From a virus: DNA of 29,484 nucleotides. The stretch is taken from the IMG/VR virus record IMGVR_UViG_3300043449_001840, positions 1 through 29,484 of that record, one strand, 5' to 3'. The notes below the pieces were generated by a model. The model worked only from the letters and a program-made list of their open reading frames with translations. It had not been told where the DNA came from and searched no databases. This document shows positions 4,440 through 15,717 of the stretch, in pieces (positions within the stretch are counted from its first letter, which is position 1; the number at the start of each line of letters is the position of its first letter). Made by a program: the position numbers and the translations under genes.

Positions 4440-5545
4440 CCGATCTCGTAGTGAATCACCTTCCCAAAGGGAGGATTGAATTTCTCGTTGTCGTGGATCA
4501 GCCATAGCGTTTTTGCTTTGGTTTCCGGTCCATAGAAATTGAACTGGCCATCACTGAAGACGAGCAGCAGCTGAGGCTTGTTCGTGTTGGCCCAATCGAG
4601 GACCGGCTCGATGCGCGTGCCGCCGCGGCCGGTGAACGTGAGGTTCATCAGCTCGCGCACGTTGCGCACATCGGTAATGTATTTGATCTCGGTGTCGAAC
4701 TGCAGCACCGTGATCTTCTCAGGAGCCATCATTCGAAGAATCGAATGAGTCTCGGTGACGAAGCGGTTGAACTCGTGATCGGAAACCGAGCCCGAGGTGT
4801 CCACCGCAATGGCGATGTTGATCAGCTGCTGGCTGTACATCGTGGGCAGAAAGTGCTGCGGGAAGAAGCGCCGGTTGGGCTTCTTGAACGAGTAGTCGTT
4901 CTTCACGAAGGCCTGGATGTACTTGGCCAGGATCCGGTGCCAGGGCAGCTTTGGGTTCAGCAGCCGATCCAGAAAGATCTGGATTTCACCGGGAATGGAG
5001 CCCGGCTTGTCGCCGGCCATATTGGCCTGCATTGCCGCGCGCACCAGGATGTCCTGGATGTCGGCTTCGAGCTGCTCGCTTGGGCCAACAGGATCTTCCA
5101 GATCCTCACCGATGCCGCCGTGGTTGTCCTTGGGGTTCGCCGGCAGCAGGTTGTAGACCTCCTCGGTGGACAGCTCCTTGTACTGCGGATCGGCCAGGCC
5201 GACCTTGGGCATCTTGAAGCCACGCTCGATCAGCTGCAGGTTGATGACGTGATCGGCCGCGATGTTGTAGCGGCGCTTGTCCATCTGCTTGGCGCGTTCC
5301 ATGTGCAGGTACGCGCAGTGCATGGACTCGTGCAGGATCAGGAACACGCGCTCTTCGGGGCTGAGCGCCATGAAGAACTCGGGGTTGTAGAGCACGCGCT
5401 TGCCATTGGTGGCGGCAGTGGGCACTTTGAAGCTGAACTCGTGAACCAGGCTGAATGCAAGGTGGCAAAAGAATGTCGAGTCGGGCCAAGACATCAATGC
5501 GATCTTGGCCTTGCTCAATGCGATGTCGTGGGGTTGCTGTTCCAT
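4436..5545 (-). CDS. VWA domain protein with N-terminal HExxH metallopeptidase-like domain
   Basis: 369 residues, equivalent to N4 gp25. The N-terminal part resembles the DUF2201 putative metallopeptidase domain, with the zinc motif HESMH at 72-76. The C-terminal von Willebrand A domain has a complete MIDAS: DTSGS (D249, S251, S253), T310 in GRGGT, and SDG with D332. Proteins of this make-up usually act with a MoxR-type AAA+ ATPase, and one lies nearby at 6300-7313. ATG at 5545 was chosen over an upstream in-frame TTG because GAGAG precedes it at good distance. It lies just after a hairpin terminator and overlaps the next gene by ATGA. Confidence 0.9.
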   Translation of the reverse strand: MEQQPHDIALSKAKIALMSWPDSTFFCHLAFSLVHEFSFKVPTAATNGKRVLYNPEFFMALSPEERVFLILHESMHCAYLHMERAKQMDKRRYNIAADHVINLQLIERGFKMPKVGLADPQYKELSTEEVYNLLPANPKDNHGGIGEDLEDPVGPSEQLEADIQDILVRAAMQANMAGDKPGSIPGEIQIFLDRLLNPKLPWHRILAKYIQAFVKNDYSFKKPNRRFFPQHFLPTMYSQQLINIAIAVDTSGSVSDHEFNRFVTETHSILRMMAPEKITVLQFDTEIKYITDVRNVRELMNLTFTGRGGTRIEPVLDWANTNKPQLLLVFSDGQFNFYGPETKAKTLWLIHDNEKFNPPFGKVIHYEIG

Positions 5546-9967: not shown

Positions 9968-11212
9968 TCAGCACAAGCCGTATGCGCTTTCTCTGATCTT
10001 GTCACCCAAGGTGCTGGACAGCTTTGGGAACATGCCTGGCACACCATGGATCTGGCTCAAGATGTCATCGAGCAGGTAGCCATCGGCCAGCTCGGCCAGG
10101 ATCTCCTTGTACTGCCACCGCACCCAATTCATGTTGTTGGGGTGCGCCTTGAACTCGTCATGGATGGTGACGAGAGGGAAGGGCTTGTACTGGAGCATGC
10201 CGTTGATGATCCTGGCCAGGGCCTCCAGATGCTGCTGCGACAGCTGCTGGACGTTCTCCTGGTTCAGGTGGGGCATGATGACCACGTCGGCGATCGAGCT
10301 GCGCTCGTACTGGGCCACGTAGTAGCCAGCCTGGCCGCGGGGCATGCTCACGGTGCGCTTGGCTCCCATGATCCGCTCCAGCATCTCGATCTCGATGATG
10401 CGAGACACCTCTTCTGCGATCTCACGATCGTAGTTGCAGCGCCTGTGCATGCTGCGCAGCACATAGGCATCCACGCTGTGGGTGACATTGGCGGCGTTTG
10501 ACAGGCCAGACTTCTGCCCCTGGTTCTCGTAGTACTCGTAGGTGAAGGTGGCGTGATCGAGCTCATCGACCTCGATGCGCGACTCCACCTTGCGCATGAC
10601 CTTGACCCGAGCGTCGAAGCCGTCGGGCATGACCCAGCGGTGCTCCAGTGCATAGGGCTGCCAGCTGGCCAGCAAGTCCTGCAGCAGATCCCAGGCACCA
10701 GGTGCGATGACCTGGGCGGCCTGGTAGAACGCGGCCAGCTCAGGGGTGTCCTCACCGAACAGGTTCTTGGGCTCGGCCTTGGAGCCGTAGAAGCTGGTCA
10801 TCAGGGCCTGCTTGGCATCGGCGCGGGCGACAACGAGGTTGCCTCCGAGGATGACATTCATCGCCTCGGTGCAGGCGCTGTAGGCATCGGCGCGCACGTT
10901 GGGGTCAACGAGGCCTGTGGCCCGTGCACCAGCCTCGCAGCCGGTGAGCACGCTCATCATCTGGATGCCCGAGCAGGTGCCGTCCACACCCACCAGGTGG
11001 CCAGTGGGCAGGCCTTTCTGGGCTTTGCGGATGGCCTGCACGGCCTTCATGTAGAGCGGCTTGGTTTCCGCTTCAGAGACCAGCTGCTCAAGCACCGGCA
11101 ATGCACCGGTGGCCCAGGCAATGCGCTGCTCGAAGGTCAGCTTGTCATGGCCAAACTGAGTGGCCGCATCAATCAACAGGTATTCGAACCCGGTATAGAA
11201 AGTCATGGCCAT
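9968..11212 (-). CDS. RNA polymerase subunit 2 (catalytic half, N4 gp16-like)
   Basis: 414 residues forming the C-terminal half of a T7-type single-subunit RNA polymerase. Motif A is VDGTCSGIQ (D77), motif B is DAKQALMTSFYGS (K134, Y142) and motif C is TIHDE (H351, D352). These supply both catalytic aspartates and the nucleotide-binding lysine. In N4 this protein joins RNAP1 to form the enzyme that reads middle genes. The start at 11212 has AAGGAG upstream. It ends the early operon before a strong terminator. Unlike in N4, it is separated from RNAP1 by about 1.1 kb of small genes. Confidence 0.95.
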   Translation of the reverse strand: MAMTFYTGFEYLLIDAATQFGHDKLTFEQRIAWATGALPVLEQLVSEAETKPLYMKAVQAIRKAQKGLPTGHLVGVDGTCSGIQMMSVLTGCEAGARATGLVDPNVRADAYSACTEAMNVILGGNLVVARADAKQALMTSFYGSKAEPKNLFGEDTPELAAFYQAAQVIAPGAWDLLQDLLASWQPYALEHRWVMPDGFDARVKVMRKVESRIEVDELDHATFTYEYYENQGQKSGLSNAANVTHSVDAYVLRSMHRRCNYDREIAEEVSRIIEIEMLERIMGAKRTVSMPRGQAGYYVAQYERSSIADVVIMPHLNQENVQQLSQQHLEALARIINGMLQYKPFPLVTIHDEFKAHPNNMNWVRWQYKEILAELADGYLLDDILSQIHGVPGMFPKLSSTLGDKIRESAYGLC

Positions 11213-12080: not shown

Positions 12081-12340
12081 GTGACCCCCATGATGAGAAG
12101 TGCCAGTCGAAATTTCTTTGGGAACTTCTCGATTTTTCCTGGTTGCCAGCCAATATCAAATCGCTCGGACTGATCGTAGAAACCGCAGATCGTTCCTCGC
12201 GCATTGCTGACCCATGCACACGGGCAGTACAGGTACTTGAACATCGAAGAATGTTTGAAGTCGTCGGTGCTTGTCAGGCAATCGAGGACTTCAACCTTGT
12301 CGTTTCTCCAGAAGATGGTTTTGCCAGCAAACTGGTTCAT
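12077..12340 (-). CDS. Tandem paralog A (87 aa), unknown function
   Basis: First of the four related genes and directly coupled to RNAP1 (ATGA at the RNAP1 stop). It begins MNQFAGKTIFWRNDKVEVLD and ends KIEKFPKKFRLALLIMGVT. It has a longer, Cys-containing middle (KYLYCPCAWVSNARG) than its paralogs. Position in the early operon suggests early expression at levels matched to RNAP1. Confidence 0.8.
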   Translation of the reverse strand: MNQFAGKTIFWRNDKVEVLDCLTSTDDFKHSSMFKYLYCPCAWVSNARGTICGFYDQSERFDIGWQPGKIEKFPKKFRLALLIMGVT

Positions 12341-13242
12341 GGAGCACCTGTCACGATCTCTTCATCGGCCAGCTCAAGCTGTGCCTTTTTGAAGGCGGTA
12401 CCTTGGGTGGTGATGTGGTAGCCCGAGGCGTAGATGCGGCCGCGCTTGTCGACCTTGTGGGTCAGGTACAGGCGATTGCCGCAGTCCACCATCAGCTTGT
12501 AAAACTGATAGCTCTGACGCTTGAACTCGTTCCAGAGGTCCGTCTTCTCCTGGCTGTCCAGCTCGAAGGTGGGCTCTTCCTCGACAGTGGACAGGAAGTC
12601 CGTATCGAGTTTGAGTGCCACGTTGTTCATCAGGTTGAGGACATCCAGGCAGATGTCTCCGTCATGATGATTGCCGGTGCCCAGGATCAGTGAATCGTTG
12701 TGGGTCAGATAGCCTGAGCTGTAGTTGTGGGTCAGCTCCAGAGGACTGCACACCATGGGTGGCAGGTACTGGCTGTTCTCGATGAACTCCACCACCTTCT
12801 CAGGCAGGGGAATCAGCGAGACCACCATCAAGCTGGAGAGCTTGTCTTCCTTGCAGATGTCGAACGCATCGGTGATGCACAGCACTGCCATCAACTCGGC
12901 CACCGTGGTGATGGCTTCCTTGCGGTCGCTGAACTTCAGCCGCGCGGCCAGCTGAGCACTCACCGAGGTGAAGAGCTCTGGCTTCATGCAGTAGGCGATG
13001 CCCACGAAGATGTCCATGACCATGGCCTTCACGTCCATGTTGTGCAGCTGCGCGATGCGCTTCTGCTTGGACTCGTAGTAGGTGCCGGCCATGTATTTCT
13101 GCACCAGGTCATGGCCCTGGGCAAGCTTGGCCACCATGCCCGCATCGGCCTCGATGGCTGTGCGGATCTTGGCGTCGATGTGCTTCCTGTTGAAGCGGTA
13201 CTCGTTCATCTCCTGGAGAACGATTTGTCTGATGGTGTCCAC
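12337..13242 (-). CDS. RNA polymerase subunit 1 (N-terminal half, N4 gp15-like)
   Basis: 301 residues, the N-terminal half of the split T7-type RNA polymerase. The C-terminal end carries the DxxGR motif (DKRGR, D265-R269) within YLTHKVDKRGRIYASGYH, which in T7-type enzymes contacts the nascent hybrid and template. It lacks motifs A-C, which sit in RNAP2. The start is a GTG at 13242 chosen because AGGAGAACCC lies just upstream; the next ATG is 11 codons in and has no such site. It follows the SLOG gene by 8 nt and overlaps the paralog cassette by 4 nt. Confidence 0.92.
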   Translation of the reverse strand: MDTIRQIVLQEMNEYRFNRKHIDAKIRTAIEADAGMVAKLAQGHDLVQKYMAGTYYESKQKRIAQLHNMDVKAMVMDIFVGIAYCMKPELFTSVSAQLAARLKFSDRKEAITTVAELMAVLCITDAFDICKEDKLSSLMVVSLIPLPEKVVEFIENSQYLPPMVCSPLELTHNYSSGYLTHNDSLILGTGNHHDGDICLDVLNLMNNVALKLDTDFLSTVEEEPTFELDSQEKTDLWNEFKRQSYQFYKLMVDCGNRLYLTHKVDKRGRIYASGYHITTQGTAFKKAQLELADEEIVTGAP

Positions 13243-13250
13243 GGGTTCTC

Positions 13251-13628
13251 CTATGAGTTGAAGTTGATGATGTGCACTGGCTTCTGAATCGAGTTCATGT
13301 ACTCGACCATGTGGCGGGTGCCATTGGATTGACCATCCCAGAAGGCTAAGAGGCCATCTGCGAAGTTGCCCATCTGGGTATTGCGGATGAAGCCCGCACG
13401 CTTGCCCAGGCCAGACCAGTTGGCTGGGAACTTGTAGAGCTTCACGCCGTGCTCTGTGGCAAAGCGGTAGCCCAGGGCATCAGCACCACGGGCCATGCCA
13501 CTGACGATACTCAGGGCCTTGTCAGCGAACTCGACATCGGCCATGGCAATGAGGACGCGCGAGAGCAGGGCGTAGTCGTTGAAGTCGCGGCTGCCGGCCA
13601 CGATCAGTTTGAATTCAGGTAGGTCCAT
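13251..13628 (-). CDS. SLOG/DUF2493-fold nucleotide-binding protein
   Basis: 125 residues from the ATG at 13628, with GGAGAACCCA upstream. Motifs of the YspA/DUF2493 group of the SLOG (Rossmann-like, DprA-related) superfamily are clear: GSRDF (12-16), SGMARGAD (43-50), AGFIRNTQM (78-86) and WDGQSNGT (97-104). Such proteins bind nucleotides or nucleotide-derived ligands. As the first gene of the early operon that ends in RNAP2, it would be made at once on infection. Ends in TAG. Confidence 0.85.
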   Translation of the reverse strand: MDLPEFKLIVAGSRDFNDYALLSRVLIAMADVEFADKALSIVSGMARGADALGYRFATEHGVKLYKFPANWSGLGKRAGFIRNTQMGNFADGLLAFWDGQSNGTRHMVEYMNSIQKPVHIINFNS

Positions 13629-13660
13629 TGGGTTCTCCATCAAAAGACATGGCAAAAGCG

Positions 13661-13680
13661 CCAGCCCATGGCCGGAGGCC
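13661..13680 (-). promoter_or_regulatory. Putative early promoter D (virion RNA polymerase hairpin)
   Basis: On the template (plus) strand a GGCC-GGA-GGCC hairpin (13670-13680) lies 13 nt from a CC at 13661-13662, which would give a transcript starting GG. The transcript would open with a short GGC/GCC stem, then TGGAG and the SLOG start at 13628. The same layout occurs at three other minus-strand starts. N4 early promoters are template-strand hairpins with a 3-nt loop. This one would drive SLOG, RNAP1, the paralogs and RNAP2. Confidence 0.7.
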
Positions 13681-13739
13681 CCCAATGTGTTGAATGGGTT
13701 GACTGTCTAGGCTGTGATCGGCTGGCAGTGCGCCAGCGT

Positions 13740-13776
13740 GAAAAAAAGCCCCCACCACCCTTTGCAGGGTGGTGGG
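13740..13776 (-). terminator. Strong intrinsic terminator after the 13784-14065 gene
   Basis: Perfect 11-bp stem CCCACCACCCT/AGGGTGGTGGG with a 4-nt loop, followed on the minus strand by GGGGCTTTTTTT. It separates early unit C from early promoter D. A further hairpin GCTGGC/GCCAGC lies at 13721-13737. Confidence 0.88.
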
Positions 13777-13783
13777 TTAGGCC

Positions 13784-14065
13784 TTAGAAGGGCAGCTCAG
13801 GTGCCTCGGTACCGTCGGCGAGCTGGAAGTCCCACTCGACGACCTTGGCCATGGCGGCAAGGGCATCAGGACCACCAGTGCTCAGACGCTCGATGATCTT
13901 GGCGTCGAACTTGCGCGCGCTCTTCAGCGGCAGAGCACCGATCTTGATGCGACCACCTTCCGAGCCCGGCTTGGGCAGGTAGATGTTCAGAAAGGCTTGC
14001 GCTTTCCAGTTGTCGTTGCCAGCAGGCTGGGCGGTTTGCGAGGAGACAGCAGGACGAAAAGACAT
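13784..14065 (-). CDS. Conserved small hypothetical phage protein
   Basis: 93 residues. The body NWKAQAFLNIYLP ... GGRIKIGALPLKSARKFDAK resembles a small protein type seen in several podoviruses whose function I do not know. Mixed beta character, no membrane segment. It is the first gene after early promoter C and is followed by a strong terminator, so it is a single-gene early unit with strong expression likely. Confidence 0.8.
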   Translation of the reverse strand: MSFRPAVSSQTAQPAGNDNWKAQAFLNIYLPKPGSEGGRIKIGALPLKSARKFDAKIIERLSTGGPDALAAMAKVVEWDFQLADGTEAPELPF

Positions 14066-14102
14066 GAGAGAACTCCAGTTGGTGGATTAGCGGCAGGATT
14101 TG

Positions 14103-14122
14103 CCTTTCTATGGCCGGAGGCC
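14103..14122 (-). promoter_or_regulatory. Putative early promoter C (virion RNA polymerase hairpin)
   Basis: Template-strand hairpin GGCC-GGA-GGCC (14112-14122), with CC at 14103-14104, 13 nt from the loop centre. The transcript would begin GGCA...UGCC, a short 5' stem, then CAACTGGAGTTC and the ATG at 14065. A 12-nt stretch around the ribosome site is identical in unit A. Confidence 0.7.
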
Positions 14123-14220
14123 CGAGCTAGCGTTGTCGGCCGGGCCCTTCCGGATCAACGCTTAGGAAGCGGACGTTACAGCAGGGTGTCAAGTTAGTGT
14201 CAGCTAACCGGTACGGACAC

Positions 14221-14352
14221 TTACCCGCGCCATGCAAGCAGCACGCCGATCGTTGCAAAGGCAACAACACAGGCGAGCACGGGTGCGATGCGCTCGTAGA
14301 ACGTGGGCTCACGTTCCACTGGTGGGTAATAGGTATGGTCATGGATGGACAT
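14221..14352 (-). CDS. Small single-TM protein (43 aa)
   Basis: Reads MSIHDHTYYPPVEREPTFYE and then one membrane helix (IAPVLACVVAFATIGVLLAW) ending RG. GGAG lies 5 nt before the ATG. It is the last gene of early unit B. Function unknown; small early membrane proteins of phages often alter the host envelope or block other phages, but nothing here proves that. Confidence 0.7.
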   Translation of the reverse strand: MSIHDHTYYPPVEREPTFYERIAPVLACVVAFATIGVLLAWRG

Positions 14353-14361
14353 GAAGTCTCC

Positions 14362-14589
14362 TTAGTGATGCGCATGGACATGCCATGCGACTTGGTTGAA
14401 GTGAGGGACAGGGTAGAAGCAGGCCTTCAGGCCATGGGCCAGCAGCGCACCGGTAGCGATGGCAGCAGCGTCATGATCGAAGGCCTTGTAAGTCACACGT
14501 AAGGGTGTGGCTTCAAGCACTAAGTCGATGTGGTCTTCGAGGTAATACTCGATGTGGGGAACAGCGACAGGTGGATGGGCAGAGGCCAT
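14362..14589 (-). CDS. Small hypothetical protein (75 aa)
   Basis: Started at the ATG at 14589 because AGGAG lies 8 nt upstream; a longer frame runs into the preceding gene without a ribosome site. It is His-rich at both ends (VPHIEYYLEDHID, NQVAWHVHAHH). No known motif. Member of early unit B. Confidence 0.7.
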   Translation of the reverse strand: MASAHPPVAVPHIEYYLEDHIDLVLEATPLRVTYKAFDHDAAAIATGALLAHGLKACFYPVPHFNQVAWHVHAHH

Positions 14590-14599
14590 GAGGGATCTC

Positions 14600-14800
14600 C
14601 TAGTAGTTGCGCATGAGGGTGACGTGATGCAGCACCAGCCCCAGATCAGCCTTGGGAAGGTGGCCAATCAGGTTGTCGATGCTGGTATGACGGACATGCT
14701 GAGTGGCATATCCGATGAAGCGGAGTGCTTTGCGCACTCGTGTGGGATTGCCATAGGCAGCAGCCTTGATGGCACGGACAGGGCGAATGGTCGAGGCCAT
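14600..14800 (-). CDS. Small basic hypothetical protein (66 aa)
   Basis: Basic, helical protein (MASTIRPVRAIKAAAYGNPT ... LRFIGYATQHVRH). AGGAG sits 6 nt before the ATG. Ends in TAG. Member of early unit B. A nucleic-acid-binding role is possible from the charge but not shown. Confidence 0.7.
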   Translation of the reverse strand: MASTIRPVRAIKAAAYGNPTRVRKALRFIGYATQHVRHTSIDNLIGHLPKADLGLVLHHVTLMRNY

Positions 14801-14803
14801 CGA

Positions 14804-14959
14804 TTACTCCTGGTTGAATTGAGACAGGTCATCAAGCCGAACGTATTCAGCGATGACTGTGATGGGCACCAAGCGCAGTTCAGAGGCAACCTCCAAAGGA
14901 GGCAGGCCACGGCACCATGCTTGGTAGATGTTGGACATCTGGAACTGAGACGGTTTCAT
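14804..14959 (-). CDS. Small hypothetical protein (51 aa)
   Basis: Reads MKPSQFQMSNIYQAWCRGLP then LEVASELRLVPITVIAEYVR, which could be a short helix-turn-helix, and ends DDLSQFNQE. The start overlaps the preceding stop by ATGA. Shorter than typical HTH proteins, so this assignment is weak. Confidence 0.65.
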   Translation of the reverse strand: MKPSQFQMSNIYQAWCRGLPPLEVASELRLVPITVIAEYVRLDDLSQFNQE

Positions 14960-15114
14960 TTGCCTGCCTTTGCGCACAAGGGTTGAACGATGAGGTTGTG
15001 ACCAACCTCAGGTGTCGAGCACCAGCGAGGCAGGTTGTCGACAAAGAGGTAGACGCTGAAGCCCACGCAATAGGCGAACAGCAGAAGTGAGATGACAAGG
15101 GTTGGGTGTTTCAT
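14956..15114 (-). CDS. Small single-TM protein, first gene of early unit B (52 aa)
   Basis: N-terminal membrane helix or uncleaved signal (LVISLLLFAYCVGFSVYLFV) followed by a short polar tail with two cysteines. GGAG lies 8 nt before the ATG. It is the first gene downstream of early promoter B, with a 7-bp hairpin (GGAACAG/CTGTTCC, 15130-15148) in its leader. Confidence 0.72.
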   Translation of the reverse strand: MKHPTLVISLLLFAYCVGFSVYLFVDNLPRWCSTPEVGHNLIVQPLCAKAGK

Positions 15115-15150
15115 AGAAGTTCTCCAATGGGAACAGGACATCTGTTCCTT

Positions 15151-15171
15151 CCATTGCATGCCCGGAGGGCA
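15151..15171 (-). promoter_or_regulatory. Putative early promoter B (virion RNA polymerase hairpin)
   Basis: The best formed of the four: template-strand stem TGCCC/GGGCA (5 bp) with a GGA loop (15159-15171). CC at 15151-15152 lies 13 nt from the loop centre. The transcript would start GGAAGGAACAG, and the 7-bp leader hairpin follows at once. It drives the five small genes from 15114 down to 14221. Confidence 0.72.
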
Positions 15172-15180
15172 AGGAGAGTG

Positions 15181-15414
15181 CTGTATATCGGGTGAGTATC
15201 GGAATGGGAAAGTAAGTGAGGACACACTAACTTAGGGAGTTTTGTTGCAGCCTGAGACTCAGCTGCATTCCCATTCCCATAACCCTGAGCTGAGCTGGAA
15301 CTCAGTCACACCATCCGAATGCCGGCAGGCATCTGCATCAAGAGATGATTGAAGCTGAGCTAGCCTCAGCCCTTTCATCTTGGAACTGACTATCTCAGTT
15401 GTGTATGTGTTGTG
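15181..15414. other. Non-coding repeat-rich segment
   Basis: I see no gene here. It holds a 10-bp inverted repeat (GGAATGGGAA at 15201-15210 and TTCCCATTCC at 15268-15277) enclosing a near-perfect palindrome (GCAGcCTGAG/CTCAGCTGC, 15247-15266). It also holds CTAACTTAG (15227-15235), ATGCC/GGCAT (15319-15332) and at least six copies of CTGAG/CTCAG. Candidate roles are replication origin, packaging site or genome end. Confidence 0.5.
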
Positions 15415-15447
15415 TAAAAAGACCTAGCACCCCGAAGGGTGCTTAGG
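15414..15447 (-). terminator. Intrinsic terminator of early unit A
   Basis: Stem CCTAGCACCC/GGGTGCTTAGG (one bulged base) with a TTCG loop on the minus strand, followed by TCTTTTTAC. It begins directly after the stop of the 70-residue gene. Confidence 0.82.
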
Positions 15448-15448
15448 T

Positions 15449-15661
15449 TTAGTTGGTGACCTTGGTAACAGAGGCGATCTTGCGATCAGCCTTCTCCAGT
15501 TCTACGAGCTGGCGAGCGCGGTCGATGCGTGCTTTGTCTGCCATTGCGGCAGCTGCTTCTTCAGTCATCTTTCCGATTTCGTCGATGGCATGAGCGTAAC
15601 GACCGAAGGCGGTGAAGAGGATAGCGATGGATGCGAACAGTGCTTTGAATGCGTTGATCAT
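15449..15661 (-). CDS. Small membrane-anchored protein, only gene of early unit A (70 aa)
   Basis: Starts MINAFKALFASIAILFTAFG, an N-terminal membrane segment, followed by a charged Ala/Glu/Lys-rich helix likely to form a coiled coil. CTGGAG lies 8-9 nt before the ATG. It has its own early promoter and terminator. Probably acts at the inner membrane; function unknown. Confidence 0.75.
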   Translation of the reverse strand: MINAFKALFASIAILFTAFGRYAHAIDEIGKMTEEAAAAMADKARIDRARQLVELEKADRKIASVTKVTN

Positions 15662-15696
15662 GGTGAACTCCAGTTGATTGAGGTGGGGTAGGGTTA

Positions 15697-15717
15697 CCCG
15701 TATTTGGCCGGAGGCCG
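15697..15717 (-). promoter_or_regulatory. Putative early promoter A (virion RNA polymerase hairpin)
   Basis: Template-strand hairpin GGCC-GGA-GGCC (15706-15716) with a flanking T-G pair. CCC at 15697-15699 lies 12-14 nt from the loop centre. The transcript would begin GGGUA-ACCC-UACCC, a 5-bp stem, then CAACTGGAGTTC and the ATG at 15661. Confidence 0.68.

Follow-up and report, generated by a model that had tools for sequence, protein, structure and literature searches.

The stretch of DNA analyzed here, called the window throughout, comprises the 29,484 bases of IMG/VR virus record IMGVR_UViG_3300043449_001840, a fragment of an N4-like phage genome. Its minus strand carries small early genes followed by RNAP1, RNAP2, and further genes, and its plus strand carries tRNAs followed by the terminase, portal, and major head protein genes. 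The RNAPII pair, together with the terminase, portal, and major head protein, makes up a gene set of the N4 type and indicates membership in the Schitoviridae. The terminase has matches in 480 phage records, with a top identity of 71% to Vibrio phages. A megablast search of the window against phage records returned no close named relative; RNAP1 does not exceed about 50% identity to its counterparts in Pseudomonas and other phages, and relatives in IMG/VR reach identities of up to 83%. An Rfam scan of the region found two tRNAs only. In the early region lie four hairpin modules, which a preliminary description had interpreted as early promoters of the type read by the virion-packaged RNA polymerase (vRNAP) of phage N4. 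The hairpins of these candidate promoters are the following.

15706..15716, plus (template) strand: hairpin of promoter A, GGCC-GGA-GGCC, with the minus-strand RNA start predicted at 15699 or 15698.
15159..15171, plus (template) strand: hairpin of promoter B, TGCCC-GGA-GGGCA, with the minus-strand RNA start predicted at 15152.
14112..14122, plus (template) strand: hairpin of promoter C, GGCC-GGA-GGCC, with the minus-strand RNA start predicted at 14104.
13670..13680, plus (template) strand: hairpin of promoter D, GGCC-GGA-GGCC, with the minus-strand RNA start predicted at 13662.

All four GGA-loop hairpins claimed for the plus strand were found at exactly the positions first given for them. A scan of the whole window showed that they are the only perfect GGA triloop hairpins of at least 4 bp on this strand, all within 2.04 kb of the early region. 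The minus strand has a single such hairpin, at 5098, and it is intragenic. Each of the four has a three-nucleotide G-R-A loop (GGA in every case) and a C:G closing pair on the template strand. The CC reported 13 to 14 nucleotides (nt) to the left of the loop centre was likewise confirmed in 4/4 hairpins, unit A having CCC at 12 to 14. To estimate chance occurrence, we shuffled the window 300 times with its dinucleotides preserved. The window itself has four C-closed GGA hairpins compared to a shuffle mean of 0.60 (maximum, 3), and four with CC in register compared to a mean of 0.03 (maximum, 1). These shuffles, together with the strand controls and the zone controls given below, ruled out a chance origin of the hairpins. 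We also observed a tetraloop hairpin (ATGCC-GGCA-GGCAT) at 15319-15332 on the plus strand, with CC in register at 15311-15312. It could be a fifth promoter or a chance occurrence, and we regard it as a weak lead only because the other promoters of the window have GGA triloops.

Next, we compared the window with about 80 relatives. Close relatives have hairpins at the same genes; the flanks are identical, and the stems differ yet remain complementary. For a zone count, we used 44 sequences (the window plus 43 loci) and took the 4.5 kb preceding RNAP1 as the early zone. The template strand had 115 C-closed GRA hairpins in 185 kb of early zone compared to 29 in 499 kb elsewhere. CC stood in register in 94 of the 115 early-zone hairpins but in only 1 of the 29 elsewhere and in 9/49 on the opposite strand. 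A strict pattern search gave 13 matches in 12 genomes, with none in the reversed control. Scans of RHEph22, ZC03, RPP1, and HN02 revealed no convincing hairpins of this type, and several of the IMG/VR relatives scanned had none (e.g., L034, L035, L043, and L106 to L109).

Complementarity within the scanned hairpin set is not evidence in itself, because the scan requires a stem. For an independent test, we started from the conserved leader sequence GGCAGGATTTGCC (template sense). A perfect GNA triloop hairpin follows 13 of its 15 exact sites, with stems of GGGC, GCGC, GGCC, or GGCG; GGTA tetraloop hairpins follow the remaining two. The stem sequence therefore varies while the pairing stays. We then surveyed all loop sequences and all closing pairs with CC in register. 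The C-closed loops GGA (96), GAA (52), GTA (28), and GCA (20) and the tetraloop GGTA (11) rose above the rest. GGCA and GATA loops occurred six times each, no more than the commonest other loops (seven), and mainly in phages whose other promoters also have tetraloops. These results bear on whether the hairpins might be double-stranded protein-binding sites (operators) rather than promoters, as intergenic inverted repeats commonly are. However, the stems differ between sites and between phages while complementarity is kept, enrichment among all loop sequences is confined to C-closed G..A loops, and the pattern is strand specific with a fixed CC register. We consider an operator role highly improbable.

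The spacing between loop and start had been described as longer than in N4 (13 instead of 11), and this was upheld; it marks a whole class of Schitoviridae. Among 137 unique C-closed GNA hairpins, collected without conditioning on CC, C is found at position 13 in 113 and at position 14 in 96. In the same set, A is found at position 12 in 90 hairpins and C8-A7-T6 in most, and positions 15 to 18 are flat. The N4 spacing of 11 found no support in the clade of the window, as position 11 is not conserved and position 13 is. CC lies at 11 in N4 (3/3), ECBP1 (3/3), RiverRider, Pokken, JWAlpha, Salmonella phage UTK0002, and Rexella, and at 13 in Pa2 (4/4), JA-1 (3/4), 98PfluR60PP (1), and Ka3 (3/5 sites). 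In a vRNAP tree, the 13-nt phages fall outside a group made up of N4, JWAlpha, and RiverRider. The Schitoviridae appear to split into 11-nt and 13-nt spacing classes.

The modules could also be vRNAP promoters that start at 11, as N4 and its nearer relatives do (PMC4496689), with the CC at 13 to 14 kept for no other reason than that it forms the first pairs of the leader stem, of which it is indeed a part in many units. In contrast, C at 11 occurs in only 41/137 hairpins, compared to C at 13 in 113/137, and in none of the four in the window. The CC is also retained in units whose leader stem starts elsewhere than at +1, such as unit B, and phages with CC at 11 and phages with CC at 13 are separate groups. 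A start at 11 therefore seems unlikely.

The predicted leaders were folded with +1 placed at the CC, and sequences starting with GG served as controls. The mean paired probability of the first two RNA nucleotides was 0.75 in 77 leaders and 0.55 in controls, and shifting +1 by one nucleotide either way lowered it to 0.54 and 0.51. When each cluster was represented by one leader, the values were 0.66 and 0.53 (P = 4e-7). In the unit B leader, all 7 pairs covary across five orthologues, with both sides changed and all cells paired; here the CC is kept even though the stem begins past +1. All four leader stem-loops of the preliminary description (GGGUA/UACCC, GGAACAG/CUGUUCC, GGCA/UGCC, and GGC/GCC) can be drawn, but the claim that each begins at once does not hold for the second, which starts at +5. 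Beginning with a stem-loop at or near +1 thus appears to be common among leaders but not universal. We can only guess that the stem-loop aids release of the RNA from the single-stranded template or protects its 5' end.

Behind the hairpins, the transcription units are laid out as listed below.

15686..15699, plus strand: template of leader stem-loop A, RNA GGGUA-ACCC-UACCC.
15449..15661, minus strand: early gene of unit A, 70 amino acids, leader of 37 to 38 nt, PHROG 6483 (unknown function).
15426..15443, minus strand: terminator of unit A, 7-bp stem and T run.
15130..15148, plus strand: template of leader stem-loop B, RNA GGAACAG-AUGUC-CUGUUCC, beginning at +5.
14956..15114, minus strand: first early gene of unit B, a small hydrophobic protein, with ATG at 15114.
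14092..14104, plus strand: template of leader stem-loop C, GGCAGGATTTGCC, RNA GGCA-AAUCC-UGCC, kept in many relatives.
13784..14065, minus strand: early gene of unit C, 93 amino acids, weak match to PHROG 6271.
13751..13776, minus strand: terminator of unit C, 11-bp stem and T run.
13651..13662, plus strand: template of leader stem-loop D, RNA GGC-GCUUUU-GCC.
13251..13628, minus strand: first gene of unit D, YspA/SLOG family, PF10686.
12337..13242, minus strand: RNAP1, subunit of the N4-like RNAPII, phrog_2166 (E = 3e-100).
9968..11212, minus strand: RNAP2, subunit of the N4-like RNAPII, phrog_2051, PF00940.

For unit D, we assumed the gene start to be the ATG at 13628, from the preceding GGAG; an alternative ATG lies at 13640. 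Unit D runs on into the RNAPII subunit genes. The promoters are located upstream of early genes and RNAPII subunit genes, as in N4. The other details given earlier for these units also proved accurate: TGGAG and then ATG follow each hairpin, with start codons 42 to 47 nt from the hairpins (34 to 39 nt from the predicted RNA start); the 12-nt CAACTGGAGTTC common to units A and C occurs exactly twice, at 14070-14081 and 15665-15676; and two strong hairpin terminators lie on the minus strand, at 15443-15426 (unit A) and 13776-13751 (unit C). Sitting between transcription units as they do, the promoter hairpins might instead function at the RNA level, by terminating the preceding unit or marking its transcript for processing. 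Yet the hairpins themselves are not among the listed terminators, it is the template strand and not the RNA that carries the conserved G..A loop, and a start-like CC, a Shine-Dalgarno sequence, and an ATG come after each hairpin. A role in RNA is scarcely credible on these grounds.

Between terminator A and promoter B, the minus strand has a stretch without an evident gene (15170-15424) that contains many CTGAG/CTCAG repeats and is in part conserved in relatives. Its minus-strand RNA folds better than 200/200 shuffles (z = -3.36; plus strand, z = -1.31). At 15186-15202 on the minus strand, CCGATACTCACCCGATA contains a tandem CCGATA with an 11-bp period. About 50 of about 90 relatives carry the pattern CCGATA-N5-CCGATA, nearly all of them in a single copy, and it is located on the sense strand, 0.9 to 3.6 kb upstream of RNAP1. 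It often lies 20 to 45 nt upstream of an early promoter hairpin and sometimes just upstream of a gene start. It was not found in N4 or Pa2, and the reversed control was near zero.

We also searched for vRNAP in the relatives. With the catalytic core of N4 as a single query sequence, it was found in 15/24 records, and a clade profile found it in 18/26 relative contigs, among them all contigs of at least 55 kb; the eight contigs without a profile match are fragments of 5 to 48 kb. The clade profile matches N4 vRNAP structures with an E value of about 1e-40. Alignment of the catalytic motifs succeeded for the E(V/I)DGxTNG region at D559, for R...K.P, and for motif C, which reads HDA where N4 has FDG. 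The core of one relative's vRNAP was predicted with a mean confidence score (predicted local distance difference test) of 84. The best structural match of this model is the N4 mini-vRNAP-P2 complex (3c3l; Z = 25.3; root mean square deviation, 3.9; 962 residues; 16% identity), and the match to T7 RNAP is lower (17.9). The model suggests that this enzyme has the N4 vRNAP fold. Mapping of the N4 contact residues K114, R119, W129, D901, and R904 onto the relatives was dropped. We make no residue-level claim because the alignment of the N-terminal loop-binding region is unreliable and the specificity-loop region has insertions, both being strongly diverged.

Loop identity was compared within and between phages. 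Some phages use one loop only, namely, GTA in L016 to L019 (19 promoters) and GCA in L023 and L024; GGNA tetraloops occur in L010, L014, and L099, and GATA and GTTA occur in L118. In a set of 45 nonredundant phages with 171 promoters, the exact loop was equal in 68% of within-phage promoter pairs (shuffled mean, 23%; maximum, 32% in 2,000), whereas the 4-bp stem was equal in only 28%. Among the 26 phages with a vRNAP sequence, loop similarity correlated with vRNAP identity once RNAP1 identity had been corrected for (r = 0.34; P = 0.001), and the reverse test, loop against RNAP1 corrected for vRNAP, gave an r of 0.10 (P = 0.18). The loop thus appears largely uniform within a phage and seems to track vRNAP rather than the neighboring RNAPII gene. 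The correlation is support for this and not proof, because the partial Mantel test has known weaknesses and loops are also inherited by descent. Moreover, the loop does not strictly follow the enzyme, as L006 and L011 both have GGA loops at a vRNAP identity of just 32%, a point that weighs against such tracking. An example of the tracking is the pair L004 and L006 (records G001 and G002), which are 82% identical in RNAP1 and 35% identical in the vRNAP core and have mainly GAA and GGA loops, respectively. In this pair, vRNAP seems to have been exchanged, or to be diverging, independently of the early region.

Taken together, the four modules are very probably early promoters, in a variant form, of the virion-packaged T7-like vRNAP of an N4-like phage (Schitoviridae). 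We call them a variant of the N4 early promoter because the -8G and the 11-nt register of N4 were looked for and are absent. Several points weigh against this interpretation. The stem position of the N4 -8G is occupied by C in 4/4 hairpins (the position is variable across the clade), and 0/4 have C at the N4 start position. The perfect stems measure 4 bp in A, C, and D and 5 bp in B, compared to 5 to 7 bp in N4 (4 to 7 bp in the relatives). Leader pairing is a tendency only, with 54% of leader clusters above 0.8 paired compared to 33% of controls. The start sites were read from DNA sequence and not from RNA, and the vRNAP gene of the phage itself lies outside the 29-kb window, which stops short of the site of this gene in N4 (gp50, beyond gp54-gp51).

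By analogy with N4, we infer the start sites, extrusion, loop recognition, and leader function as follows. Negative supercoiling would extrude each short inverted repeat, and the template-strand arm would fold as a stable C-GGA-G triloop hairpin. The vRNAP would then read the loop plus its C:G closing pair and initiate opposite the CC 13 to 14 nt from the loop centre, yielding RNA with a 5' GG. In most cases, the leader would fold into a stem-loop that starts at or close to +1, with TGGAG and ATG coming after it. In this scheme, the loop may be a phage-wide specificity feature that changes together with vRNAP. Going further, early transcription in the Schitoviridae may follow an evolvable DNA-hairpin code, in which each vRNAP has its own loop (GGA, GAA, GTA, GCA, or a GNNA tetraloop) and a register of 11 or 13, enzyme-promoter pairs are perhaps insulated from one another, and the 5' stem-loop of the RNA aids release or protection. 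We propose this broader idea tentatively, with slightly less than even confidence.

N4 vRNAP is the model for DNA-hairpin promoters, and its rules (central purine, -8G, and start 11 nt from the loop centre) come from one phage. In our comparison, these rules vary from one clade to another, while the CC start and the C-closed G..A loop persist. The template-strand consensus CCA-N3-CATGNNC-GRA-GNNCA offers a means of locating early promoters in N4-like phages that have not been cultured. Naturally occurring pairs of vRNAP and promoter, differing in their loops, are material for studying how the enzyme reads a hairpin, and they may yield single-strand promoters that work independently of each other in vitro. 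The stem-loops of the leaders hint at a step in early RNA handling that has so far gone unexamined.

In N4, vRNAP (gp50) reads the early promoters P1 to P3 (numbering and contact bases are from PMC4496689; the P1 oligonucleotide is from PMC12633501). P1 to P3 and the promoters of the window share a template-strand hairpin, a three-nucleotide G-R-A loop, a C:G closing pair, an initiating C followed by C, and a location upstream of early and RNAPII genes. The leaders of N4 P1 and P2 have a stem-loop from +1, like most of those of the window; that of P3 has none. The window differs in its spacing (13 instead of 11), C instead of G at -8, stems of 4 to 5 bp, and four promoters instead of three. 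Its relatives further differ from N4 in allowing a pyrimidine as the central loop base and loops of four bases. Hairpin promoters of this kind are already known, as they were predicted for Pseudomonas phages LUZ7, LIT1, and PEV2 (PMC3715699) and for Pectobacterium phages (PMC6027278). In LUZ7, LIT1, and PEV2, they have 4- to 5-bp stems and three-nucleotide loops, lie ahead of early genes, and are called N4-like; the main text of that report gives no spacing difference (PMC3715699). Pa2, which is related to these phages, has CC at 13 in 4/4 promoters, like the window, with GAA and GTA loops mixed. In the open literature that we searched, to which this negative is limited, no description of the 13-nt class, pyrimidine loops, or tetraloops was found. 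Several features of the family as a whole appear to be new, namely, its two registers, the phage-wide identity of the loop (tetraloops included), and the structured leaders. The hairpins that we found in Erwinia phage Rexella (Erskinevirinae) resemble those of the window in that they are on the template strand, precede early genes, and have CC in a constant register. Unlike the window, Rexella has the N4 register of 11 and GTAA and GGAA tetraloops, and it is apparently a separate case of tetraloop use.

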